Origin: a virus
Direction: 5' to 3' (one strand)
DNA: 22,109 bases
IMG/VR virus record: IMGVR_UViG_3300025781_000086
Coordinates: 1-22,109 of that record
Part shown: positions 3,589 through 19,811 of the stretch, piece by piece
Position numbering within the stretch: the stretch's first letter is position 1
How the letters are laid out: each line of letters begins with the position of its first letter
The notes under the pieces: model-generated
What the model was told of the DNA's origin: nothing
Database searches by the model: none
Seen by the model: the letters and a program-made list of their open reading frames with translations, nothing else
Made by a program: the position numbers and the translations under genes

Positions 3589-3616
3589 AGTGTATTTATG
3601 CCGCAAGCTTTGTCAA
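3589..3616 (-). promoter_or_regulatory. gp32 promoter: late-type CATAAATA plus sigma70-like -35
   Basis: The minus strand carries GGCATAAATAC (CATAAATA at 3593-3600), matching the T4-like late-promoter core and identical over GGCATAAATAC to the site before gp19. The same stretch has an exact TTGACA (3611-3616) with TACACT (3589-3594) 16 bases later, so a sigma70-type start could overlap the late one. Either would give a leader of about 75 bases before gp32. Confidence 0.5.
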
Positions 3617-8572: not shown

Positions 8573-9046
8573 TTATTTAGTGTCGTTATCAATTTCGCTC
8601 AGCTGTTTCAACAGCTCATTGCGATCCATCAGCGTGGCTTTCACATCAAGAGGGTCGCTGTCAGGCGATTTAGTCGTGCGATCCAGCTTGAGTTTGTCCA
8701 GCTGTAGCTTCAGCATCTTTAGCTTCTTGTCAACTTTGGCATTCTTGGCATCTACCGCAATCTTAAGCATCTGGCTGCTGCTGCTGAAGATCTCACCAGC
8801 ATGTCGTATTTCCACGTTCATGCCAAGATCCTGCAGGTCCTGATGTGCTTTGATTGCCATATCGGCCAATTCATCCATCTCACGATCGTGGAGGTCCTTA
8901 CCTCTTACTTCGCTTAGCTGTCTATCAATGTCATCAGCCAATGCTAGCGCTGCTTGTATGTCAGCGTCATCAGGGGCTGTATCGTCTGGTTCTGGCACGC
9001 TCTGTATTTCAAAGGTATCTTCCAGCGTCTTGAATCTGTTGGACAT
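8573..9046 (-). CDS. gp16: gp16-like terminase small subunit
   Basis: Likely small terminase subunit, which recognises DNA and stimulates gp17. It is 157 aa (T4 gp16 is 164). It has an acidic N-terminal segment (EPDDTAPDDADIQAALALAD), a central helical hairpin region including IRHAGEIFSSSSQMLKIAVD and AKNAKVDKKLKMLKLQLDKL, and a polar C-terminus. The central region parallels T4 gp16, where a helix ending in an ...EIFLETAKNA-type sequence is followed by a Lys-rich helix. The ATG shares one base with the gp4 stop (TGATG), with an AGAGG ribosome site. Proximity to gp4 and gp17 supports the call, but in T4 gp16 directly precedes gp17, whereas here two genes intervene. Confidence 0.7.
   Translation of the reverse strand: MSNRFKTLEDTFEIQSVPEPDDTAPDDADIQAALALADDIDRQLSEVRGKDLHDREMDELADMAIKAHQDLQDLGMNVEIRHAGEIFSSSSQMLKIAVDAKNAKVDKKLKMLKLQLDKLKLDRTTKSPDSDPLDVKATLMDRNELLKQLSEIDNDTK
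8574..8580 (-). promoter_or_regulatory. Late-promoter motif CTAAATA before the 274-aa gene
   Basis: CTAAATA on the minus strand overlaps the stop codon of gp16 and lies 21 bases upstream of the ATG at 8552. A T4-like late start about 6 bases downstream would leave a leader of about 15 bases that includes the GGAG ribosome site, a conventional late-transcript layout. Confidence 0.5.
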
Positions 9047-9492
9047 CAGCGTTTCCTCTTGACCTTTGGTTTAGTGATATATATGTCGCTTTCCGTGAGG
9101 ATCCTAAAGGTCATGCCATTCTTCTTGCAGTAGCTCATTGCAGCTGCCCATTTAGCAGTGTTGAGAATCAAGCTCACCTTGTCACGCTTGCTCTTTGCAT
9201 TTTCAACTATGGTTTCTTTGGCAGGTTTTACTTCTACTATCTCTGCCCTGCGCTTGCCGTTCTTGTCTTGATAGAGAACCATGAAGTCCGGTACGTATTG
9301 GCTTGGTTTACCCGTGAGGGGATTGATGTATGGTATGCGTATGCTTTCACTGGCCCATTGCAGAACGCTGGGATGAGTATCAAGGAAGTTCATCACGGTC
9401 AATTCCCAGCTGCTGCGGAATACTACTTCCTGCTTGCCTATGAGTTTGGCTGGATTTTTAGGAACAAAACGCCCCTGGCTGTACTTGGTCAT
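9046..9492 (-). CDS. gp4: gp4-like head completion protein with PD-(D/E)xK nuclease motif
   Basis: Matches the T4 gp4 head-completion family (T4 gp4 is 150 aa; this is 148). It carries a PD-(D/E)xK nuclease core of the TnsA type: RSSWEL at 26-31, YVPDFMVLY with Asp69, and EIVEVKP with Glu87 and Lys89. In T4, gp4 is needed to finish packaged heads so that tails can join. The C-terminus is very basic (KPKVKRKR). The gene is one base into gp16 and follows the radical-SAM pair after 10 bases, with no clear Shine-Dalgarno. A free nuclease is an alternative, but length and neighbours favour gp4. Confidence 0.8.
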   Translation of the reverse strand: MTKYSQGRFVPKNPAKLIGKQEVVFRSSWELTVMNFLDTHPSVLQWASESIRIPYINPLTGKPSQYVPDFMVLYQDKNGKRRAEIVEVKPAKETIVENAKSKRDKVSLILNTAKWAAAMSYCKKNGMTFRILTESDIYITKPKVKRKR

Positions 9493-9502
9493 GTTGATTT
9501 AC

Positions 9503-10618
9503 TTATGTTTCTCGTAGAATGTAATCTAATTCAGGAACAACATCTTTCAGCTGTGTATTTCGCCGCATGTCAAGAACATCATTTAGGGCTACGAACTTCT
9601 TGCACCAGTCATCGGTGTTTATAACCGCTGGCAATTTCAGATGATTTGTAATGTGCTGCAGTTTGTCGCGAGCAGCATGAGAATTGTATGTTGATATCAA
9701 TCTTTCTTTGTATTCTGTGGGAAGATTCCTAGCATCTAGCGCCTCTGGTACGCGCAAAAATATTGGATTGATCCATATGCCAAACTCGTCGGCTAAATCC
9801 AAGATATCCGTGTAGGCGTGCGCATTGTAGACGCTGATGACACTCACTAGGTTAAATTTGATGTGATCAAACTTTTTTGCTAAATCAGACATCAATCTTA
9901 GATTTTGATAGATTGTGTTCCACTGACTATCTGAACGAATGTAATCATTGAGATCACCAACACCGTCAACGCTGCACCCGATGTTCACTTTCTTCATAGC
10001 ACTCATCAATTCTATCAACTCGTCGCATACAGCAACAGTCATGTTTGAATTGATGAACAATACAAGTTTATCCAAAGCACCATGTTTCTTGATTTGATTC
10101 AATGCTTCCAATATCTCTTCCTGATGCAACAATGGTTCACCGCCCATGAACTGCAAACGTGTGATTGTTTTTGCTTGCGAAGGGCTGAGTTCCCATTTTG
10201 AACTGAGCAATCCAACCGATTCCTCTCCAAGTGCTACAGCATCTGGAATCCATTTCGTTGACCGTTCCTGGTTACACGATCTGCATTTGATGTTGCACAC
10301 ATTGCTTAGATTCACTTCTTCGCTACGCAACTGTGACGGCAAATTGAAATCTACGTCTAATAGTTTGGCAATCTCAAATCCATATGTTCTATGGCTTCTG
10401 CCCTTAGTAGTTTCGTTGCGGATGCATTTTTGGCATCTCTCATGCGGTTGGTTATCTATAAAAGACTGCCTAAGAGAGGACATGAAGTTGCCGTGAAAGA
10501 AATCCTCACGACTGTAGCGTTTTACAGCACCTCCCCATACACAACATGGGTTGACACCGCCATCGGTTAATATATTCTGATGAAACCAAGGCCAAGCACA
10601 AAAAGGAGTCTCATGCAT
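9503..10618 (-). CDS. Radical SAM protein with N-terminal twitch-like Cys motif (copy 1)
   Basis: Radical S-adenosylmethionine enzyme of unknown substrate, 371 aa. The radical-SAM cluster motif CNIKCRSC gives Cys108, Cys112 and Cys115, and GGEP at 159-162 is the SAM-binding motif. An auxiliary Cys set lies before the core: FCAWPW (Cys7), NPCC (Cys25/26) and CQKC (Cys62/65), preceded by the PW and DGGV hallmarks of SPASM/twitch segments. Later barrel strands are visible (LVLFINSNMTV, IGCSVDGVGD). The C-terminus has only one scattered Cys, so no C-terminal SPASM domain. It overlaps its upstream paralogue by 8 bases (ATGCATGA) and is followed by gp4. The location in a late head-tail region is odd for an enzyme. 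Class is certain; function is unknown. Confidence 0.88.
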   Translation of the reverse strand: MHETPFCAWPWFHQNILTDGGVNPCCVWGGAVKRYSREDFFHGNFMSSLRQSFIDNQPHERCQKCIRNETTKGRSHRTYGFEIAKLLDVDFNLPSQLRSEEVNLSNVCNIKCRSCNQERSTKWIPDAVALGEESVGLLSSKWELSPSQAKTITRLQFMGGEPLLHQEEILEALNQIKKHGALDKLVLFINSNMTVAVCDELIELMSAMKKVNIGCSVDGVGDLNDYIRSDSQWNTIYQNLRLMSDLAKKFDHIKFNLVSVISVYNAHAYTDILDLADEFGIWINPIFLRVPEALDARNLPTEYKERLISTYNSHAARDKLQHITNHLKLPAVINTDDWCKKFVALNDVLDMRRNTQLKDVVPELDYILRET

Positions 10619-11735
10619 CTTCTGTATCCAGTGCAGCAGCTAGGCTTGGAATACAATCTTGCAACCTAGTACCTCTGCGATGATCAAGGAACTCGTTGTA
10701 TTTGTGGAACTGATCACGCCAATCTGATGTTTTCACGGTAGGATCAGATGAAAGATGGGATATTATAGGTTCCAGTTTTCTTTTATATCGAGAACTGGAT
10801 TTATACATGTCTAGCAGCTGTTTCTTGTATTGATGGGGTAGATTTCTAGCATTGAGATGTTCAGGGATACGAAGCAATATTGGATTGACCCACGTATCAA
10901 ATTCTCTGGCTAAATCCAATATTTCTATGTATGAATGAGCATTGTAAACACTGTAGAGGCATGCTATGTTGAAAAGAATATGAGCATGCGATCGGCTTAA
11001 TTCTCTGATTTGAGTTAGATTAGAAACTACATCTTCCCAATTTGTATCAGATCTTATGTATTCATTTTGCACACCTATGCCATCAATGCTGCAGCCAATA
11101 CCTACTTTTTTCATGCCCATCATCAGTGTCATTAACTCATCTGACAGAGATACTGTGATGTTAGAATTGATGAAAAGTGTGAGATTATGTAGATTGTCCT
11201 GCTCCTTTACGGTTCGCAATATGTCTACTATTTGATCTTGGTGCAACAATGGTTCTCCGCCCAAGAACTGCAAACGTTTGATCTCCTTGGCCCTATCTGA
11301 ACTAAGTTCCCAACCAGATTCCAAGACTTTTACTGCAGTTTCACCTAAAGCAACTGCATCTGGTATCCATTTTGTTGACCTGTGTTGATTACAAGATCTA
11401 CACTTGACATTACAAACGTTGCTGAGATTTACCTCTTGGCTTTGTAGACTGGGATTGGATTCAAAATCTATCCCTAGAAGCTTAGCCATATCAAAACTGA
11501 AAGTTCTCTGGCTAGCTCCTTTGATTTTTTCATTTGTTATGCACTTGTGACAAGATTCGCCAGGCTGCTGAGCTATAAAAGATCGTCTTAGATCTTCTAA
11601 CCATTCACCCTCAAAGAAGCTGCTATGATCATAGCTAGGAATGCCTGGTCCCCACTGCGAACAGGGGTTAACACCGCCGTCGGTCAGCACATGTTGATGG
11701 AACCACGGCCATGCACAGAATGGACCGCTTTGCAC
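10611..11735 (-). CDS. Radical SAM protein with N-terminal twitch-like Cys motif (copy 2)
   Basis: Paralogue of the radical-SAM protein encoded just downstream (374 aa), matching over the whole length with the same key positions: Cys7 (FCAWPW), Cys25, Cys62/65 (CHKC), and Cys108/112/115 (CNVKCRSC), followed by GGEP. It differs at the first auxiliary site, where CCVW is replaced by CSQW, so one potential cluster ligand is missing. The start is GTG, fixed by an in-frame stop two codons upstream, with GAGA about 6 bases before it. It begins 3 bases after the 158-aa structural gene and in the same frame. On five sampled 60-base lines I count 116/300 G+C, against 154/300 in gp17, suggesting a different origin. 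The pair may form a heterodimer or act on successive sites; substrate unknown. Confidence 0.86.
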   Translation of the reverse strand: MQSGPFCAWPWFHQHVLTDGGVNPCSQWGPGIPSYDHSSFFEGEWLEDLRRSFIAQQPGESCHKCITNEKIKGASQRTFSFDMAKLLGIDFESNPSLQSQEVNLSNVCNVKCRSCNQHRSTKWIPDAVALGETAVKVLESGWELSSDRAKEIKRLQFLGGEPLLHQDQIVDILRTVKEQDNLHNLTLFINSNITVSLSDELMTLMMGMKKVGIGCSIDGIGVQNEYIRSDTNWEDVVSNLTQIRELSRSHAHILFNIACLYSVYNAHSYIEILDLAREFDTWVNPILLRIPEHLNARNLPHQYKKQLLDMYKSSSRYKRKLEPIISHLSSDPTVKTSDWRDQFHKYNEFLDHRRGTRLQDCIPSLAAALDTEDA

Positions 11736-11738
11736 GTT

Positions 11739-12215
11739 TTATCTCACGAATGCAGCAGCTATAGTAGGGCCAAGCGTGGGGTTTTTCGTCCATACCGGAA
11801 ACGGATTGATACCCACGTATCCAAGCTGACTAGTTGGTAGGCGAATGCTGTTTATGGTAGCCATGAAGTCGTTCATGAGCACACCTTTTTGGAATAGATT
11901 GCCCACAGGCTCGCCTGTCTGACCAGAATAGTATGTGGCCATGTTAGCCAATACCTGTATCAGCTCGTCTGGCACACCCGGACCACCAAAGACACCAAGT
12001 GCCAGTTGATAGGCATTGGTACTCATGTTGGTTACGTATCTGGCCGGAGAATTAGACAACGCATAATTGGTGTAATCATTGCTAGACGGCAATGGTACAC
12101 CTTTGGAATTGGCCCACTGATATGCACCACCCTGTTGCGTGCCCTGCAGTTGTCCGCTTTGAGTGGCTAATTGTTTTTGTATGTTGCTTTGGATGATATC
12201 TTTAGGACCGCTCAT
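11739..12215 (-). CDS. Probable virion structural protein (158 aa)
   Basis: I do not recognise a named family. It is Gln/Ser/Asn-rich at the N-terminus (IQKQLATQSGQLQGTQQGGA), contains YVTNMSTNAYQLALGVFGGP in the middle, and ends in INPFPVWTKNPTLGPTIAAAF. There is no Cys, no signal peptide and no convincing membrane segment. The start overlaps the stop of the 568-aa tail-tube-like gene (TAATG), with a GAGG ribosome site 7 bases upstream, so the two are translationally coupled. It follows gp19 and the tail-tube-like gene, which suggests a tail or baseplate part. That role is inference. Confidence 0.7.
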   Translation of the reverse strand: MSGPKDIIQSNIQKQLATQSGQLQGTQQGGAYQWANSKGVPLPSSNDYTNYALSNSPARYVTNMSTNAYQLALGVFGGPGVPDELIQVLANMATYYSGQTGEPVGNLFQKGVLMNDFMATINSIRLPTSQLGYVGINPFPVWTKNPTLGPTIAAAFVR

Positions 12216-13921
12216 TAGTATACCTCGCCATCTAAATTTTCATTCTGATAAGGATATGCAACAGGAGGTGGCTCATTGTCGCTGGGATCGCCGCCGTATA
12301 TACCGGGGTCATCAAGATAACCAAATCCGCTTACGGTATTATTGCTCAATGCTGCTGCTGTTGACAGATTAACTCCGAATTCAGGATCGGGAGCTGGCTG
12401 ATAGTATGATTGATCATATCCAGTAAACACTCCGTATTGATCGTATGCGGGATTGCCAATTTCCAACGTCAAGCTCACTTGACCTTGTTGCACTCTGCGA
12501 CGAGCGTACTCTATCTGCTGACGCTGTGTGAGATAGCGAGGGCCGTCTGGTCCATAATTGGAATTGAGCTGGTTATGATAACTGATGCGCAGGCTTGGTA
12601 TCTGTTGTCCAGGAACTATGGTTGGTTGGGCATTCAGCTGAGCTGCATCATCTGGCACACCCGGACGATAACTCACTGTGCCGGTCACTGGGTCGTAGCT
12701 GCTGGAATAGTTTGCACCAACGGTTGTTAACACTCTTCCACCACCAAAATTGAAGGCTCCAAATGTGCCTAGCAGGTTATAAATGCCTGATCCAGTTACC
12801 TGAGTGAACTCCGTAGCCTCGTCAAACTGCACGTATTGTGGTATGTTAGGTAGCTGACCTTGTGGCAAGCCAGTCAATCCATAATTTTCTGGTATCGGGA
12901 AATTGCTTGGATTACCGCCGATAGTTGTTGCGCCGTCTCTTGGAGGAGTACCTGGTCCATACACAACGTCTGATGCAGCAGATGCGCTGACATATGATAC
13001 TTGTCCTGCCGGCACGTTAAGATCAGTGCCAGGTTGGTATTTGTTTGAAGAAGCTATTATGGCTGTGTAATTTGCACCAGATACACCTGCAGCCGGCGGT
13101 GCAGCTGCTATAGGACTGGTTATGTTTGGTCGATCAGCAAAGATGCTTGGTTGATAATCCACTCCGCTAAGATTAGTTGGCCCCTGTGCCGTCGGTATTG
13201 GTGCCGGAGTGTAACTTGGCTCGATGTACGGAGAAGCAAAGAGTCCAAATTGTTCTGCCAGCTCTACGGTCAATGTTCCGGCATTATACTGAAGAGTTTC
13301 ATATGTCAGCGTCATGCGAAAATCTTCAAGATCGCTGCTGCTGGTGTCGTGGTTTCCAAAATCAATGCTGCTTACTTTGGGATTCAAATATGTCGTAAGC
13401 GTATATTCGCTGCCGTAAAGTGCATAGATGTTTAACGCCGTAAAGAATTGTATTTGATTGACCAGCGGGCGCAATCCCCAGCCAGTGCTGTCATCAAAGG
13501 TTGGATCAACCACGCTGGTTCCCATGGTAGCAGCAGATTTATATCGTGCATCGCCAAAATAATAATTGAAATACTCAACCCACATTGTTAAAGGGGCGTT
13601 GTCTACCGTGTCATATATGGAGATGCTCACAGGCTTGTATTCTGTTTTAGTATAAGCATATCTCTTGCGATTATATTGGTTCAACTCACGTTGTTGTAGA
13701 TCAATGTTAGGCTTGTCAATGGTCCTGATCTTGAAACTAACACCGCCTTGCCAGTTGCTGATCTTGTTTAGATTGCTAAACATGCTCAAAGCTTCTGGAC
13801 TAACCTGGAAGTTGGCATAGAACATGTACTTGACCCTGGGGATCTGGTACATGGTTTGGCCAGGACTGTTGGCTCCAAAGAATACCGAAGCATATGAGGT
13901 ATTTTTCAATATGGTTGCCAT
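12215..13921 (-). CDS. Tail-tube-like structural protein with long C-terminal extension (568 aa)
   Basis: Structural protein. Roughly the first 230 residues look like a gp19-type tail-tube domain: IPRVKYMFYANFQVSP, VSFKIRTIDKPNIDLQQ, LNQYNRKRYAYTKTEYKPVS, ISIYDTVDNAPLTMWVEYF and DLEDFRMTLTYETLQYNAGT. The rest (about 340 residues) is Pro/Gly/Ser/Gln-rich and probably extended, ending acidic. In T4 the tube initiator proteins gp48 and gp54 share the tube fold, so a baseplate or tail-terminal role is plausible, but I cannot say which. The ATG has no Shine-Dalgarno; a CTAAATA motif lies 5 bases upstream. It sits after gp19 and its terminator, so it is probably a separate late transcript with the 158-aa gene. 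Confidence 0.75.
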   Translation of the reverse strand: MATILKNTSYASVFFGANSPGQTMYQIPRVKYMFYANFQVSPEALSMFSNLNKISNWQGGVSFKIRTIDKPNIDLQQRELNQYNRKRYAYTKTEYKPVSISIYDTVDNAPLTMWVEYFNYYFGDARYKSAATMGTSVVDPTFDDSTGWGLRPLVNQIQFFTALNIYALYGSEYTLTTYLNPKVSSIDFGNHDTSSSDLEDFRMTLTYETLQYNAGTLTVELAEQFGLFASPYIEPSYTPAPIPTAQGPTNLSGVDYQPSIFADRPNITSPIAAAPPAAGVSGANYTAIIASSNKYQPGTDLNVPAGQVSYVSASAASDVVYGPGTPPRDGATTIGGNPSNFPIPENYGLTGLPQGQLPNIPQYVQFDEATEFTQVTGSGIYNLLGTFGAFNFGGGRVLTTVGANYSSSYDPVTGTVSYRPGVPDDAAQLNAQPTIVPGQQIPSLRISYHNQLNSNYGPDGPRYLTQRQQIEYARRRVQQGQVSLTLEIGNPAYDQYGVFTGYDQSYYQPAPDPEFGVNLSTAAALSNNTVSGFGYLDDPGIYGGDPSDNEPPPVAYPYQNENLDGEVY

Positions 13922-13987: not shown

Positions 13988-14584
13988 TTAACCGATTTGT
14001 GGTCCGAATCCAGTCTGTACAGGATCAGTTGTCATGATGTCCGGATCCTGTGTAGCGTTGTCATAACGTATTGTCAACGTGATCATCATTGATTCACTGT
14101 TGCTGTAATCAAACGTATCATAAGCTACTGTTTCTAGGTAGCAACCTTCCAGATACCAGTTTTCAAGCACACCGTCATTAGAACCATCAAGGGTTTCAAT
14201 CTGCGTGTTGAACTTGTAGTTGATACCAGATAGGAATGATGTCTGGTTAAAGTGGTTCATCTGCTTCTGCAGCTGATAAGCAACCAAGGTGCTCACGCTG
14301 CTGCTGACGTCATCGCGTACAGTAATTTCAATGGTTTGCCATTCTGGCTTTTGTGCCACGTACATGATGTTGTTGTAGCTGTGTATTGGCGTGCTATTGT
14401 GCTGAATGCTAGGACGACCAGCTGTAGCCACCTGCACTGTGAGCTGCGTGGCTGCTCCTGGAGGTCCAAAACTCTGCATGCTCACACGGAATCGATACTT
14501 CAGCTTTGGCATTAGAATGCCGTTGCCGCTAACGCCCGGAACTATCGGAACGCCAAACTGGCTGAGTGTTGGGGTGAAGGCCAT
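13988..14584 (-). CDS. gp19: gp19 tail tube protein
   Basis: Tail tube monomer of the contractile tail, forming the inner tube inside the gp18 sheath. At 198 aa it is somewhat longer than T4 gp19 (163). The tube fold is suggested by PKLKYRFRVSMQSFG, the loop PGAATQLTVQVATAGRPSIQ, then PEWQTIEITVRDDV, LSGINYKFNTQIETLDG, GVLENWYLEGCYLETVAYD and SESMMITLTIRYDNA, alternating strands as in gp19 and Hcp-like proteins. The AGGAG ribosome site is 8 bases upstream, the CATAAATA late promoter lies at 14610-14617, and a strong terminator follows, so gp19 probably has a dedicated abundant transcript. In T4 gp18 and gp19 are adjacent; here the cargo block separates them. Confidence 0.9.
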   Translation of the reverse strand: MAFTPTLSQFGVPIVPGVSGNGILMPKLKYRFRVSMQSFGPPGAATQLTVQVATAGRPSIQHNSTPIHSYNNIMYVAQKPEWQTIEITVRDDVSSSVSTLVAYQLQKQMNHFNQTSFLSGINYKFNTQIETLDGSNDGVLENWYLEGCYLETVAYDTFDYSNSESMMITLTIRYDNATQDPDIMTTDPVQTGFGPQIG

Positions 14585-14609: not shown

Positions 14610-14617
14610 TATTTATG
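14610..14617 (-). promoter_or_regulatory. Late promoter CATAAATA before gp19
   Basis: GGCATAAATACTATT on the minus strand matches the T4-type late promoter core (TATAAATA) with C in the first position and is the same GGCATAAATAC as before gp32. The inferred start near 14604 gives a leader of about 20 bases with AGGAG. Confidence 0.65.
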
Positions 14618-14644: not shown

Positions 14645-15766
14645 TTACAGCTTGCGCGATTTTGGAATCTTGCTGTCAGCACTGCTGACACAGGCGCTGC
14701 TGATACATGGCATCGGACTGTCAAAAAGCTTGAATCCTGTTTCTATATAACCCAGAGGTTTGTCACTGCAGCTGTAACTACGTTTGATAGCACCGTCGGG
14801 CTCTCGGATGATGATGCTGCGATACCCGCTCTCGCAGTCCCAGCCCTTGAAATTGTTGAAGTTGAACGCATTGAAACGTTCAGCTTGATCCATATACCAT
14901 TTTTGTCCAGTATCATCTTCAAATTCCACCTGCATGATCTGCGGTACAGATGCATCATCCCCGTTATCGATGCTCATCCTCTGCATGCTCATCTTTGGCT
15001 TTGGTCGTTTCACCTTGCTCTTAACTGTTGTGAAATCGCGCTGCGGCATGCCATTATGCAGTGTAGCTAACTGTTCTGCAGTATAACCATCAACTACCTT
15101 GCTAGCAGTAGGGTCGCTCTGCGGTTTCAAAGTCACGTTTATCCCGCGGCTTAAGAAGTATTCTGCCTCAGCATAGAGCGTATCAAACCATTCTGGTACC
15201 ATCACAGTGTTTACGGTAACCTGCACATCGCGCTCTTGAAGGAACACTAGCTTGTCTGCAAATTTCTCCGTATGAGCCTTGAGGTCACCTTGCTTGATTC
15301 CCTGCTCTCGATGCCAGCTAGCAGTGACGCTGACTCGATGTAGGTCTTTAGTAGCATCAACGTATTTCTCAAACCAACGCAGTCCCTGCGAGACGTTGCT
15401 GGTCATGTGTACGCTTTGATAATTGCAATTCTCAGTATCATTGGCATAGTGAGACAAAAGCTGTAGATAGTCTGGATATACGGTTGGTTCTCCGCCGCTG
15501 AAACTGAAATGAAAGCTGTTGTAACCTCGGTCGCGGCTCTGTCGTTTGATCTCATCCATGGTCAAGAGATTCAATTCTATTGGACGATAATCCTTGCTGT
15601 TGCTGCGTGCGTAAGGCCAACAATAGCTGCAGTTGTAATTGCAATACCTGCCAAGCAACCAACTCACAGCAAACATGTCTCTATACAGCAAGCTACGTTG
15701 GCCAAATTTCACTATCCTGTCAAAAGGTATCTTGGTAAAATCATAACTGCTCACTGCGTCATTCAT
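14645..15766 (-). CDS. Radical SAM protein with C-terminal SPASM/twitch-like Cys set
   Basis: Radical-SAM enzyme of a different type from the other four (373 aa). The cluster motif CNYNCSYC (Cys42, Cys46, Cys49) comes early in the chain, with SGGEP at 90-94. Later barrel elements are SVTASWHRE and VTVNTVMVPEWF. The C-terminal region has Cys311, Cys333, Cys354 and Cys359, with REPDGAIKRSYSC between the first two, which resembles a SPASM/twitch auxiliary-cluster domain. Such enzymes commonly modify peptides or small metabolites. It overlaps the SDR gene by four bases (ATGA) and is the last gene of the cargo operon before gp19. Five sampled lines give 143/300 G+C, closer to the core phage genes than the other cargo. 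Substrate unknown. Confidence 0.85.
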   Translation of the reverse strand: MNDAVSSYDFTKIPFDRIVKFGQRSLLYRDMFAVSWLLGRYCNYNCSYCWPYARSNSKDYRPIELNLLTMDEIKRQSRDRGYNSFHFSFSGGEPTVYPDYLQLLSHYANDTENCNYQSVHMTSNVSQGLRWFEKYVDATKDLHRVSVTASWHREQGIKQGDLKAHTEKFADKLVFLQERDVQVTVNTVMVPEWFDTLYAEAEYFLSRGINVTLKPQSDPTASKVVDGYTAEQLATLHNGMPQRDFTTVKSKVKRPKPKMSMQRMSIDNGDDASVPQIMQVEFEDDTGQKWYMDQAERFNAFNFNNFKGWDCESGYRSIIIREPDGAIKRSYSCSDKPLGYIETGFKLFDSPMPCISSACVSSADSKIPKSRKL

Positions 15767-16317
15767 GCCTGCACCTGTATAGGATCAATGCTTAGTTCGT
15801 TTATAGCAACACCGTTTGGTTGATCTACTACCCATTTAACATAGCTGGCGGCTAGATCAATGTCCATGCATGTACGATCTGGATGTTTGCTTTGGTTGTT
15901 GCTCAATGTCCCAAAGCTGATGTAGGACACTGTTGGACCTCCAGACCAAACTCCGGTTATATTAAGGCTGTTGCAATAGCTGCGCAGAGCCTTTTTCTCT
16001 TGTTGATATAACCAATCGCTGCCTTTGGTGGTCCTATCCGTGGTACTGCCTATGCAGACTATCTTAAGGTCATGCTTGGCTAACTTAGCAGCCTTATAGA
16101 CAGTTTCCAAAACTAAGGTCTGGTGAAATTTCCATAATGCGCTGTTGTTTATGAACACATCATATTCAATGCACATGCGAGCTAGATTCTCAATGAGGTT
16201 AGATTTTGTGAGATCCCATCCATTGCTCCGGCTGACGAAGGTAGCATTAGGCCAAAGCGCATGCAATGATCCTGCCAATCCCTTGGTCGGGTTACCTGTT
16301 ATCAATATCTTTGTCAC
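15763..16317 (-). CDS. Short-chain dehydrogenase/reductase-like protein
   Basis: Compact Rossmann-fold protein of the SDR type, 184 aa against about 250 for classical members. Visible motifs are the N-terminal strand and nucleotide loop ILITGNPTKGLAG (residues 4-16, a variant of TGxxxGxG with one extra residue), FINNSA (55-60, in place of NNAG), the conserved IGSTTD strand (Ser91), the catalytic-type Y-x-x-x-K as Tyr104/Lys108 (YQQEK), and GGPTVS near 126-131, where classical members have PG. The set suggests an active NAD(P)-dependent oxidoreductase or epimerase/dehydratase. The start is GTG, overlapping the upstream radical-SAM stop by four bases (GTGA), and it overlaps the next gene by four. 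Shared translation points to a common pathway with the radical-SAM enzymes. Confidence 0.75.
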   Translation of the reverse strand: MTKILITGNPTKGLAGSLHALWPNATFVSRSNGWDLTKSNLIENLARMCIEYDVFINNSALWKFHQTLVLETVYKAAKLAKHDLKIVCIGSTTDRTTKGSDWLYQQEKKALRSYCNSLNITGVWSGGPTVSYISFGTLSNNQSKHPDRTCMDIDLAASYVKWVVDQPNGVAINELSIDPIQVQA

Positions 16318-17624
16318 AGATACCCTCTCAGTTCTGGCACTACGTCAATTATGTTTTGTCCGCGTATTTCATCTAGACGCTTGGTGTAAGAAACGAAACC
16401 ATGCCAATGAGCGCTGTGATAATCTTGTGCATGCATATAACCTAAAACGCTATTCTTTATCATAATTGCACTGTCAATCACATGCTGCGGATAATCGTTT
16501 TCAATCACCCACTGATTAAAATCTTCAAATTTTTCTTTTACTAAGACTTTCAATTCAGCTGGCAACACCCTGATGTTGGTTTGTTGAGGATTATGGGCTA
16601 CATGATGAGTGACTATTGGGCGCCTTCTGGTGTTATTGAATTTAGATAAGCCACTCTGTTCAAGTTTCCATCGCATGAAATCTGGCATGTGTAGGACATT
16701 GTATGCTGTAACCGTGTACGCAAACCATGCATTGATGTTCTCTGAGCTAGAATCAATGACCTGTATGTTATGCCATACCTTTTGCCAACTTGCAGGATAT
16801 CGCTGATATTCTAACACAGATCCATAACCGTCGATGCTAGCTCCTATCTGTATGGTCTTAAACTGCTTCCATAGATTCAATGCTCTCGAAGATATGCTAG
16901 TCATGTTGGTGTTGTATTCGATCAACATGTTTTTAGCAGCGCCGTTTTCAATGCACCTCTCTAAAAACTCATAATGACGTTCTATGAGCAACGGTTCGCC
17001 GCCTGCCATGTATACGTGTTGTATGTTACCAGAATTACTTTCTATCTGCTGCCAAAAGCTATCACTGTCGTGCCAGCCATAGCTGTGACTGATCCACTTG
17101 CCGTTTTGCTTGATCATCTGCTCACGGCCGTGCGTATCATCAAACCAATCTTTACCCTCTAACTGGTAATGATCATCGTACCATCCTGTGCTGTCCTGCG
17201 GACCACACATCCTGCAAGCGAGATTGCAGAGATTTCCAAATCTCAAATCATAATACGCCACCGGAAAGTCATCTGTATTGATTGACCCGTCTTCTGCTGT
17301 AAGCTCTCGCACATCCTCGGCACGCAGAGTCCATCTATCATGTTCATAATTGCGCCTACTGATCAATCCAGTTGCTTCTTCACTCTTGCAGCGACCACAT
17401 TCTTCGCTCCAAATACCAGACAGCATGTTCTTGCGCATGATCTTCATCAGATCGCTGTTGCGCGATTCTGCTAAATTGTCGCGAGCAGCATTGTACGGAT
17501 TGCCGTCTTGTTTCCGCAGAACTCCTTTGTTTTTTGTAATATTTGCCTGACAGCATACTCGTAGATCACCATTGCTGCGTACAGCCTGAAAGTTCCACGG
17601 TATTGGACAAAAACACTCAGCCAC
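16314..17624 (-). CDS. Radical SAM protein with N-terminal twitch-like Cys motif (436 aa)
   Basis: Radical-SAM enzyme with an auxiliary cysteine set before the core. The N-terminus reads CFCPIPW (Cys4, Cys6), then SNGDLRVCC (Cys24/25) and CGRC (Cys76/79). The cluster motif CNLACRMC gives Cys133, Cys137 and Cys140, and GGEP is at 208-211. Further barrel strands are IEYNTNMTS and IGASIDGYGS. The C-terminal third is His/Asn-rich with VTHHVAHNPQ and no Cys. The start is GTG inside the end of the upstream gene, overlapping it by 8 bases (GTGGCTGA), and the stop overlaps the SDR gene. It is related to the 424-aa protein upstream and more distantly to the pair at 9503-11735. Substrate unknown. Confidence 0.87.
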   Translation of the reverse strand: MAECFCPIPWNFQAVRSNGDLRVCCQANITKNKGVLRKQDGNPYNAARDNLAESRNSDLMKIMRKNMLSGIWSEECGRCKSEEATGLISRRNYEHDRWTLRAEDVRELTAEDGSINTDDFPVAYYDLRFGNLCNLACRMCGPQDSTGWYDDHYQLEGKDWFDDTHGREQMIKQNGKWISHSYGWHDSDSFWQQIESNSGNIQHVYMAGGEPLLIERHYEFLERCIENGAAKNMLIEYNTNMTSISSRALNLWKQFKTIQIGASIDGYGSVLEYQRYPASWQKVWHNIQVIDSSSENINAWFAYTVTAYNVLHMPDFMRWKLEQSGLSKFNNTRRRPIVTHHVAHNPQQTNIRVLPAELKVLVKEKFEDFNQWVIENDYPQHVIDSAIMIKNSVLGYMHAQDYHSAHWHGFVSYTKRLDEIRGQNIIDVVPELRGYL

Positions 17625-18891
17625 GATAATCAGCCTTCCATTCTCTTGCTGTCATAGCAGCCATGGGGAATATCGTTTCCCAATCTTGCCTTTGATTGAG
17701 CTGTAAATTATCCCAAACCCGCAAGAAATAACCACGTTGCTCAGCAAGCTCGTCTGGCGACATGCGCACTTTATCGTGCATGGTTTCATACTGATCAATC
17801 TTTGGCAGCAATCTTTTGTGTCCATCTAGTTTTGATCTCGATGCATCAATGCAGCGCATGAGCTGATGTTTATCCATTAAACCAATGTTAAAGTATTTTG
17901 GATTGTATACCAAATGGCTAACTGTTTCTTTGATTTTCTTGTAGCGTTGATCAGCTATCCACGACAGGAGTTCACCGTAATGTTCTAATGATAGCATGCT
18001 GATCGTAGTTGATAAGAACACATGTATGTTATCGTCTGAGGAATCTAACATGCGCAGGTTGTCAACAACTGTTGGCCATTTGGTATGATACCTAATTGCT
18101 TCATTGGCTTGACCAAATGCATCAATGCTTCCGCATATCCTAATCAGCTTGAATTTTTTCCAAATATCAAATAGATCTGGCGGAAACACAGTTAGGTTTG
18201 AACTGTACTCTAATTCCATTCGGTCGGCATACCCCAAGCCTATCAACGACTCGAGAAGATAGCGATGATGCTTGATCAACAATGGCTCGCCGCCGCCAAA
18301 CTTGATCTTGATCAAATCTGTTGATTGTGATAGCAACGCATCTATGTTTTTCCTATCTTTTGACCATCCAAACGCATTTTTTGCTGTTGCTAGGTCATAT
18401 TTTTTGCCGTCTACTACAAAATAATCCCAGCCCAGTATGTCTTCGTGTACATCAATCCATTTAGATGACTCACCGGCAAAGCACATCACACAGCGTAGAT
18501 TGCATTCATTACCTATGCGTAGATCAAAATCCTGCCAAGATCCACCGTTGACTGTACCATCAGGATCAGTCATTGACAGTGCCATTTCCTTGGTAAAGCT
18601 TTGTAGATGCCTTTGTGTTTCCCACTGATCTCGACTGTTAATACCAGCTAGCGATTCGTCTTTGCAGCGTTTGCATTGCGCTGGCCACTTGCCTTTCAAC
18701 ATGTCTCTACGCACTGTCTTGAGAGTATCACAATTGATGATATCTGCACCGCTAAGGTCTGCAATGTTCAAGACCACGTCGTTGTTGCATAATAACGTGT
18801 TGCCTTTGCCGGCACTTTGGCTGTGCGAGCACATGCGAAGATCGCCGTTGTTTTTGACTCCAAGATGAGTCCAAGGCAACGGACACCACAT
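17617..18891 (-). CDS. Radical SAM protein with N-terminal twitch-like Cys motif (424 aa)
   Basis: First gene of the four-gene cargo operon. The N-terminus MWCPLPW (Cys3) leads into NNGDLRMCSHS (Cys21) and CKRC (Cys73/76), the same auxiliary layout as its neighbour, but with CS in place of CC. The radical-SAM motif CNLRCVMC gives Cys130, Cys134 and Cys137, followed by GGGEPLLIKHH. Strands LEYSSNLTV and ICGSIDAFGQ match the paralogue. The C-terminus has no auxiliary Cys cluster. Start is an ATG with only a weak GGA upstream. Five sampled lines give 123/300 G+C, below gp17. It is transcribed divergently from the PLP-enzyme gene across a 68-base spacer. Function unknown. Confidence 0.87.
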   Translation of the reverse strand: MWCPLPWTHLGVKNNGDLRMCSHSQSAGKGNTLLCNNDVVLNIADLSGADIINCDTLKTVRRDMLKGKWPAQCKRCKDESLAGINSRDQWETQRHLQSFTKEMALSMTDPDGTVNGGSWQDFDLRIGNECNLRCVMCFAGESSKWIDVHEDILGWDYFVVDGKKYDLATAKNAFGWSKDRKNIDALLSQSTDLIKIKFGGGEPLLIKHHRYLLESLIGLGYADRMELEYSSNLTVFPPDLFDIWKKFKLIRICGSIDAFGQANEAIRYHTKWPTVVDNLRMLDSSDDNIHVFLSTTISMLSLEHYGELLSWIADQRYKKIKETVSHLVYNPKYFNIGLMDKHQLMRCIDASRSKLDGHKRLLPKIDQYETMHDKVRMSPDELAEQRGYFLRVWDNLQLNQRQDWETIFPMAAMTAREWKADYRG

Positions 18892-18959
18892 TAGGATTTT
18901 TCCAAACGGTTGCGCATCATAATATATACATCCTAGCAGAGAGCAAGTAAACTGATATC
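18892..18959. promoter_or_regulatory. Divergent intergenic region of the cargo cluster
   Basis: This 68-base spacer separates the leftward radical-SAM operon from the rightward PLP gene, so promoters for both probably lie here. It has an A+T-rich core, CATAATATATACAT (about 18917-18931). On the minus strand TTTACT (18946-18951) stands 17 bases from TATATA (18923-18928), a weak sigma70-like pair; on the plus strand CATAAT resembles a -10. Neither strand has a convincing late CTAAATA/CATAAATA motif here, nor a good ribosome site. Confidence 0.35.
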
Positions 18960-19811
18960 ATGCGTGACAGTCCAGATCGACAATATACCAAAGAGTGGTT
19001 GCAAATTGATCGACCTCAGCCAATGTATGACAATGGCATAAACCGTCTTTATAGCAATATTTACCAGAAAAATCCAGTAGATTCTGCAGATATTGTCAAT
19101 GATTTCAAAAAGGTATTCTTAGAATTTCTCAAAGGACATACCCTGAGTAATCTCAGAGGATATGACAATTTTGAACGATTAGATATATGCATGGGATGCA
19201 CACAGTTCATTGATGACCTATACCAGCGGCTCGGTCCGACCGGATTGATGATATGGAGACGCGAATACAAATATCATTGGAGACTAAATCCAGAATTAGT
19301 TGCAACTAAGGTAGATACTCTTGATCCAAAGAAAGAATTATTGATAAGCATGCCGTTTTCATTTTACGGCGATGTGCATCCAAGAATGACAGAGATATTA
19401 GATCGTTGCGCCGAGCTAGAAATTCCTGTGCACATAGACGGTGCGTATATTACCTGTAGCAGAGATGTAGATTTTGACTTTGATCATCCTGCTATCAAGA
19501 CATTTGCCATAAGTCTTAGCAAGGGCGGACTTGGTCCAGATAGAGTAGCGTTAAGGTTTGCAAGATCAAAACCCGAAGGTTCTATTACCATCATGAATGA
19601 TTTTAACATGGTAAGCCAAAGCCTACTCAACGTTGGTATCGCTTTTATGAAAGAACTAGGACCTGAGTATTTTTGGAGAAAGTACGGTGGTGCTTATGAA
19701 CAGGTTTGTAAGGATTTTGAACTCTTGCCAACAAAATCCATTCATCTTGCCAGGACACAAGACGGAGAACCTGTAGGCATTAGGCCGCTGCTACGCTGTT
19801 TGGTAAAATGA
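18960..19811 (+). CDS. PLP-dependent aminotransferase-like enzyme, fold type I
   Basis: The only plus-strand gene, 283 aa. Aminotransferase-type features in order: CMGCTQFIDDLYQRLGP (78-93), a substitute for the usual glycine-rich cofactor segment; LLISMPFSFYGDVHPRMTEI; VHIDGAY with Asp160 to pair with the pyridine nitrogen and Tyr163; and FAISLSKGG with Lys188, the expected Schiff-base lysine, followed by LGPDRVALRF (Arg195). It is about 100 residues shorter than usual class I/II aminotransferases and seems to lack most of the C-terminal small domain. No Shine-Dalgarno is evident. The G+C is low (116/300 on five lines). It ends 6 bases from a convergent 96-aa gene. Placement beside the radical-SAM/SDR operon suggests a joint pathway; its substrate is not predictable. 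Class assignment is by motif only. Confidence 0.65.
   Translation: MRDSPDRQYTKEWLQIDRPQPMYDNGINRLYSNIYQKNPVDSADIVNDFKKVFLEFLKGHTLSNLRGYDNFERLDICMGCTQFIDDLYQRLGPTGLMIWRREYKYHWRLNPELVATKVDTLDPKKELLISMPFSFYGDVHPRMTEILDRCAELEIPVHIDGAYITCSRDVDFDFDHPAIKTFAISLSKGGLGPDRVALRFARSKPEGSITIMNDFNMVSQSLLNVGIAFMKELGPEYFWRKYGGAYEQVCKDFELLPTKSIHLARTQDGEPVGIRPLLRCLVK

Follow-up and report, generated by a model that had tools for sequence, protein, structure and literature searches.

A pair of N-terminal-twitch radical-SAM genes at an exchangeable joint between tail-tube and head-completion genes of a T4-like phage

Why do two radical-SAM genes lie side by side between the tail-tube genes and the head-completion gene of a phage, and what might their products do there? 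We addressed this question in a 22,109-base IMG/VR record (IMGVR_UViG_3300025781_000086), analysed over its whole length and hereafter called the window, which derives from a T4-superfamily myovirus. The minus-strand order runs from the tail sheath (phrog_10581) through a variable cassette, gp19, a 568-aa tail-tube-like gene, the 158-aa ORF P158 and the radical-SAM pair to gp4, terminase, a gp32-like gene, UvsX and UvsY. The best isolate match of the terminase is that of Sinorhizobium phage Phosso (469 kb), at 52.4% identity; in both Phosso and Atu_ph07 two tail-tube genes are followed by head completion/closure, and no radical-SAM gene is annotated in between. Relatives among the IMG/VR contigs are as long as 216 and 518 kb, which makes a large phage the probable source. 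Searches of the window for known RNA features and for tRNA returned none. The features on which the argument draws are as follows.

9046..9492, minus strand: gp4-like protein of head closure/completion, bordering the slot downstream (phrog_218, 5.9e-44; PF08722)
9503..10618, minus strand: copy A, 371 aa, ATG start, N_Twi_rSAM (NF033640, PF04055; model pLDDT 96.3)
10611..11735, minus strand: copy B, 374 aa, GTG start, N_Twi_rSAM with Ser26 (NF033640, PF04055)
11739..12215, minus strand: P158, 158-aa ORF, upstream border of the slot, adjoining the tail-tube genes; no family match
12215..13921, minus strand: 568-aa tail-tube-like gene of the late run (phrog_13438, 1.4e-19)
13988..14584, minus strand: gp19-like tail tube gene, first of the late run (phrog_4542, 9.6e-51)
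14610..14617, minus strand: CATAAATA, octamer resembling a T4-type late promoter, 33 bases ahead of gp19
14645..19811, no strand assigned: larger cassette between tail sheath and gp19, separate from the pair, with three radical-SAM ORFs, a 184-aa ORF and a 283-aa ORF (plus strand)

The first-pass annotation had proposed two full-length radical-SAM genes between the 158-aa gene and gp4, and both are intact at this position, overlapping each other by 8 nt and separated by 3 nt from the P158 stop and by 10 nt from the gp4 start. NF033640 (N_Twi_rSAM) scores 252.4 bits for copy A and 231.5 bits for copy B against a curated cut-off of 170, with coverage of profile positions 3-397 and 4-396 of 398, respectively, and PF04055 (Radical_SAM) matches both copies. 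The neighbours are also those that had been named, with gp4 (phrog_218) downstream and the 158-aa ORF just after two tail-tube-like ORFs. Assignment of the pair to the viperin family (NF038283) was considered and rejected, at 34 bits versus a cut-off of 180. P158 matched no family in profile searches and its structural model is poor (pLDDT 55); it is conserved between tail tube and gp4 across related phages.

Copies A and B are 54% identical over 371 columns, with pN 0.31 and a saturated pS of 0.80. Copy A carries C7/C25/C26/C62/C65 in its N-terminal twitch, the radical-SAM motif C108xxxC112xxC115 and GGEP at 159-162. C7, C25, C62, C65, C108, C112 and C115, together with GGEP (G159-P162), are invariant in 55/55 aligned viral relatives, and all seven cluster cysteines and GGEP are kept in 13/13 distinct full-length proteins of the slot type. 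Cysteines 7, 25, 62, 65, 108, 112, 115 and 215 bear the same residue numbers in both copies, as had been noticed at first pass; the further step, from shared numbering to duplication, does not follow, since L008:5642-6778 has the same numbering, which is therefore a trait of the clade and cannot alone prove a duplication.

Whether the pair is an insertion was examined by locating the same joint in other viruses with P158 and gp4 profiles, which gave 44 viral contigs holding both borders, the window included. The joint contains two radical-SAM ORFs in seven contigs, one in seven and none in 30, and no other ORF of at least 60 aa occurs in it in any of the 44. In the empty joints, nine in close and 21 in more distant contigs, P158 stands directly against gp4, many of them as a 4-base overlap, and the insertion junctions fall exactly at the P158 stop and the gp4 start; some computed gaps (L097, -58; L125, -35) are artefacts of ORF start choice. 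As all 21 of the 21 more distant relatives are empty, the slot content is an insertion, in agreement with the original proposal, whereas the expectation that the two genes always travel together fails, the copy number being 0, 1 or 2. Outside the 44 stand L011/L094, L012 and L108, in which the start of a slot enzyme is visible and the contig ends before gp4, as well as 38 gp4 loci without a detectable P158. A scan with all 13 slot-type proteins yielded no further slot-type member among the best 80 matches, and the census is a lower bound, because the scans cover the matches listed and their patterns passed over several slot-type genes, which came to light through the flanking genes. One short-pattern contig scan for a close cellular source of the pair returned none, its 470 pattern matches containing five weak relatives with 23-31% identity over part of the protein.

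The 13 distinct slot-type proteins, 12 of them inside the slot and the L013 copy elsewhere, form one clade (SH-aLRT 100 in the 55-row tree; UFB/SH-aLRT 99/98 in the 17-row tree). Origin by duplication had been claimed for the window pair, and A and B are indeed sisters with moderate support (SH-aLRT 94 in the 55-row tree; UFB/SH-aLRT 89/86 in the 17-row tree), as are the two copies of L101 (SH-aLRT 98; 84/84). The AU test is not decisive, as it does not reject a grouping of B with the second copy of L008 (p 0.263) nor, narrowly, of A with that same copy (p 0.065), so duplication of the window pair is likely rather than proved. The pairs of L008 and L010 are not sisters (AU p 1.5e-7 and 2.9e-4). 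One ancestral duplication for all pairs was tried as an explanation and rejected, all first genes as a single clade having p 1.2e-69 in a 10-row set.

Replacement is most directly seen between L014 and L106, whose borders are nearly the same (P158 96.2% and gp4 98.6% identical, flanking DNA 97% and 94%) and whose slot enzymes are just 37% identical and not sisters (AU p 3.0e-4). On a P158 and gp4 backbone tree of 21 contigs chosen from the 44, presence changes at least five times and copy number six times; the presence pattern is not far from random on this tree, since shuffled labels do as well in 23/200 (all groups together). Because the L008 and L010 pairs are non-sister and near-identical flanks in L014 and L106 hold different copies, we conclude, at the level of sequence, that the slot undergoes turnover by gain, loss and replacement and does not preserve one fixed ancestral pair. 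A third radical-SAM copy lies right after gp4 in L101 (12381-12941, 186 aa), having lost a large internal part while keeping an N-terminal part and the C-terminal end.

At residue 26, which adjoins the invariant C25, A has Cys and B has Ser, a difference that had been read as a hint of functional divergence. The substitution is real and conserved, Ser26 being kept in every copy B found (window, L006, L007 and the L012 fragment). Among the viral relatives residue 26 is Cys in 53/55; the two with Ser are copy B and the window gene at 17617-18891. When the set was widened to 234 distinct ORFs from 93 loci, a simple motif could be read in 187, giving 182 CC, three CS, one CM and one CW; CS was read in copy B of the window (entered as L003), in copy B of L006 and in a 454-aa ORF of L108. 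The CC motif likewise has Ser as its second residue in the 424-aa cassette radical-SAM gene (window 17617-18891) and in its relative L108:2300-3664. Since the Cys/Ser difference sits beside C25 and outside the four-cysteine site, no core ligand is lost in B, and with Ser recurring in the distant 424-aa gene and relatives, Ser26 is at most a hint that the copies may have diverged.

The setting of the slot bears on when the pair might be expressed. TATAAATA is the T4 late promoter. Gp19 was found in 20 of the 21 contigs examined (L099 being the exception). In 19 of these 20 its ORF start is preceded, at 26-37 bases, by YATAAATA, and GATAAATA lies nearby in the twentieth (L123). With one mismatch allowed, this simple pattern is no commoner than chance in the window alone, so that the weight of the octamer evidence, as a sequence signal, lies in its conserved position upstream of gp19 and not in its count in the window. 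The 13 predicted sigma-70 promoters in the window, against 12.0 expected, are uninformative. No T4-type late octamer lies inside the slot in 8/8 filled slots tested; given the octamer before gp19 and none in filled slots, late co-expression of the pair with the tail and head-completion genes is likely. A second CATAAATA octamer is located at window positions 3593-3600 (minus strand), just upstream of the gp32-like gene.

To consider what reaction such enzymes could catalyze we turned to a model of copy A (mean pLDDT 96.3, pTM 0.92), which shows a radical-SAM core and an N-terminal twitch domain. Its full-length fold matches are uncultured phage proteins (TM about 0.8), while the best Foldseek matches in the PDB are CteB, SkfB and anSME, with TM scores near 0.4 over the query. 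VIA-align Z scores, from rows that mostly span residues 16-331 and do not bear on the C-terminal end, are about tied (BlsE 12.5, anSME 12.3, CteB 12.0, viperin-like 11.8, MoaA 11.7), with the cores of CteB, SkfB and anSME at 11.5-12.3. Because peptide enzymes and small-molecule enzymes (BlsE, viperin-like, MoaA) score about equally, the fold does not decide the substrate. In the full profile, residues 5-76 align to the BtrN twitch domain (186-257) with E 5.1e-6, whereas the twitch-domain profile alone finds no PDB match up to E 1. Of the SPASM motif CX9-15GX4C-gap-CX2CX5CX3C-gap-C, as given in the motif passage of PMC6231123, C7, G20, C25 and C62xxC65 fit, and there is no Cys at the following +6 and +10 positions and no seventh. 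The same source, where it treats auxiliary clusters, describes that of BtrN as fully ligated by four cysteines and reports the proposal that clusters of this kind oxidise a radical intermediate (PMC6231123).

By analogy we propose that the pair may carry out a net two-electron oxidation. The genes would be read from the late transcript together with the tail and head-completion genes; SAM would be cleaved at the C108/C112/C115 cluster and the 5'-deoxyadenosyl radical would abstract a hydrogen atom from the substrate, after which the N-terminal four-cysteine cluster (C7, C25, C62, C65) would accept the second electron, in the way suggested for BtrN and anSME, with dehydrogenation or cross-linking as examples of the outcome. 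The least firm steps are those beyond the chemistry: the substrate would be available late in infection, perhaps a protein or peptide of the virion or the host, or else a surface molecule, and would vary between phages; whole enzyme genes would be swapped by recombination in the conserved flanks as it varied; and two copies would represent either tandem duplicates or two imported versions. A late and variable target is suggested because late expression and fast replacement would both fit it, and late oxidative modification is our best guess at the role of the pair. P158 was considered as the substrate and set aside; phages whose slot enzymes differ greatly share a P158 that is ~96% identical, and a protein that barely changes while the enzyme does is not a favoured target. 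Nor is there room for a precursor peptide gene adjoining the pair, the gaps being 3, -8 and 10 nt, and filled slots hold no other ORF of at least 60 aa. Taken jointly with the proposed chemistry and substrate swap, the reading of the pair as two active-looking N-terminal-twitch radical-SAM enzymes in an exchangeable slot of the T4-type late operon of a large T4-like phage has, in our estimate, a probability of about 0.5. An extension of it, in which a dedicated single-content slot swaps and stacks fast-diverging radical-SAM enzymes that modify a late target (virion or host envelope), and so diversifies the particle by exchange of enzymes and not of tail fibres, is speculative and we consider it improbable.

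The main rival reading is that the products are auxiliary metabolic enzymes that serve the infected cell by synthesising or modifying a small molecule, cofactor or sugar, their site in the late operon being an accident of insertion. BtrN, to which the twitch domain is matched, has a small-molecule substrate, and the tie of small-molecule with peptide enzymes in the fold list leans the same way, as does the metabolic benefit proposed, in the passages concerned, for Campylobacter phage radical-SAM modules (PMC2853527). Against these points, the slot lies within a run of tail and head-completion genes and has no promoter-like octamer of its own, and none of the 14 filled slots contains a partner biosynthetic gene; we regard a metabolic role as possible, though on the whole unlikely.

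Patchy presence, with five presence changes on the backbone tree, the internally deleted third copy after gp4 in L101 and the L013 copy of slot type located elsewhere would also be expected if the genes were mostly selfish or neutral cargo that enters intergenic joints and then decays with no function for the phage. Such cargo is hard to reconcile with the retention of the seven cluster cysteines and GGEP in 13/13 distinct full-length slot-type proteins, with pN 0.31 versus pS 0.80 (saturated) between A and B, or with a slot in which no transposase, nuclease or other additional ORF is found, and we think this reading quite improbable. The overlap of the A and B genes, their sister position in the trees and the Ser kept in all copies of B found could instead reflect a fixed heterodimer that arose by a single duplication and in which B was specialised through Cys26 to Ser. 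Half of the filled contigs (7/14) carry one copy, however, the clade of all first genes is rejected (p 1.2e-69, 10-row set), and neither in L008 nor in L010 are the two copies sisters; the fixed heterodimer is already disfavoured as a general rule, and we hold it to be highly improbable. The preferred reading remains late oxidative modification by exchangeable enzymes.

Multi-radical-SAM phages have been on record since 2010 (PMC2853527). The slot amounts to a natural experiment, in which near-identical flanks carry zero, one, two or different copies at one probably late-expressed site, and comparison of virions and infected cells across slot variants would make the substrate question directly testable.

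Radical-SAM genes are abundant in the window and its relatives. The window has five, four of them N_Twi above the cut-off and the fifth at 14645-15766 (PF04055 50 bits, N_Twi just 33 bits). The count given at first pass is right; that it is unusual finds no support in the related contigs, with up to 21 N_Twi matches, or in the precedents in PMC2853527 and PMC5332604. Of 13 related contigs, chosen from the loci and not sampled, 12 have an N_Twi match above cut-off, with 21 matches in a 518-kb, 11 in a 66-kb and seven in a 216-kb contig; in the largest (L124, 518,643 bases) many of the 21 stand in tandem near 87-102 kb. The cassettes between sheath and gp19 differ apart from an 'SRSNGW'-type motif common to short ORFs (window 15763-16317, minus strand; L010:5963-6466; L101:5500-5988). 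The window member of these, the 184-aa ORF, has no family match, and the 283-aa ORF on the opposite strand of the cassette (18960-19811, plus strand) shows a weak PLP aminotransferase likeness, 18 bits versus a cut-off of 402.

Among known systems, the NCBIfam entry NF033640 ('twitch domain-containing radical SAM protein'), which both copies match over their full length above cut-off, states no reaction or substrate, and the pair differs from it in setting only, as paired copies in a late structural operon. BtrN (PDB 4m7t/4m7s) is a dehydrogenase with a twitch domain, but the matched region is C-terminal in BtrN and N-terminal in the pair. The peptide-modifying enzymes CteB, SkfB and anSME resemble copy A in core fold and have C-terminal SPASM/twitch domains, whereas the pair has neither the seven-cysteine SPASM motif nor an adjacent precursor peptide gene. 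Isolate matches to copy B are few; one of them, at 19.9% identity over 95%, is a KVP40-type 'heme biosynthesis domain'/radical-SAM protein, whose gene, unlike the pair, lies among non-structural genes. Campylobacter phages CP220 and CPt10 carry 11 and 12 radical-SAM genes, together with a module that can be interchanged (PMC2853527), and the present phages are likewise T4-like with many radical-SAM genes; there a cluster of five is swapped en masse, whereas here one or two genes occupy one intergenic joint, and the relation between the two systems was probed by fold comparison, with weak matches. Multiple radical-SAM genes in uncultured T4-like phages are likewise on record, one environmental genome having 12 (PMC5332604) and pelagimyophages having radical-SAM cassettes (PMC7029224), and the radical-SAM passages of these two sources describe no slot between a tail gene and gp4. 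We found no report of a single-content radical-SAM slot in a late operon in the literature searched. The gene family and its abundance were already known, and the interest of this locus lies in the slot.
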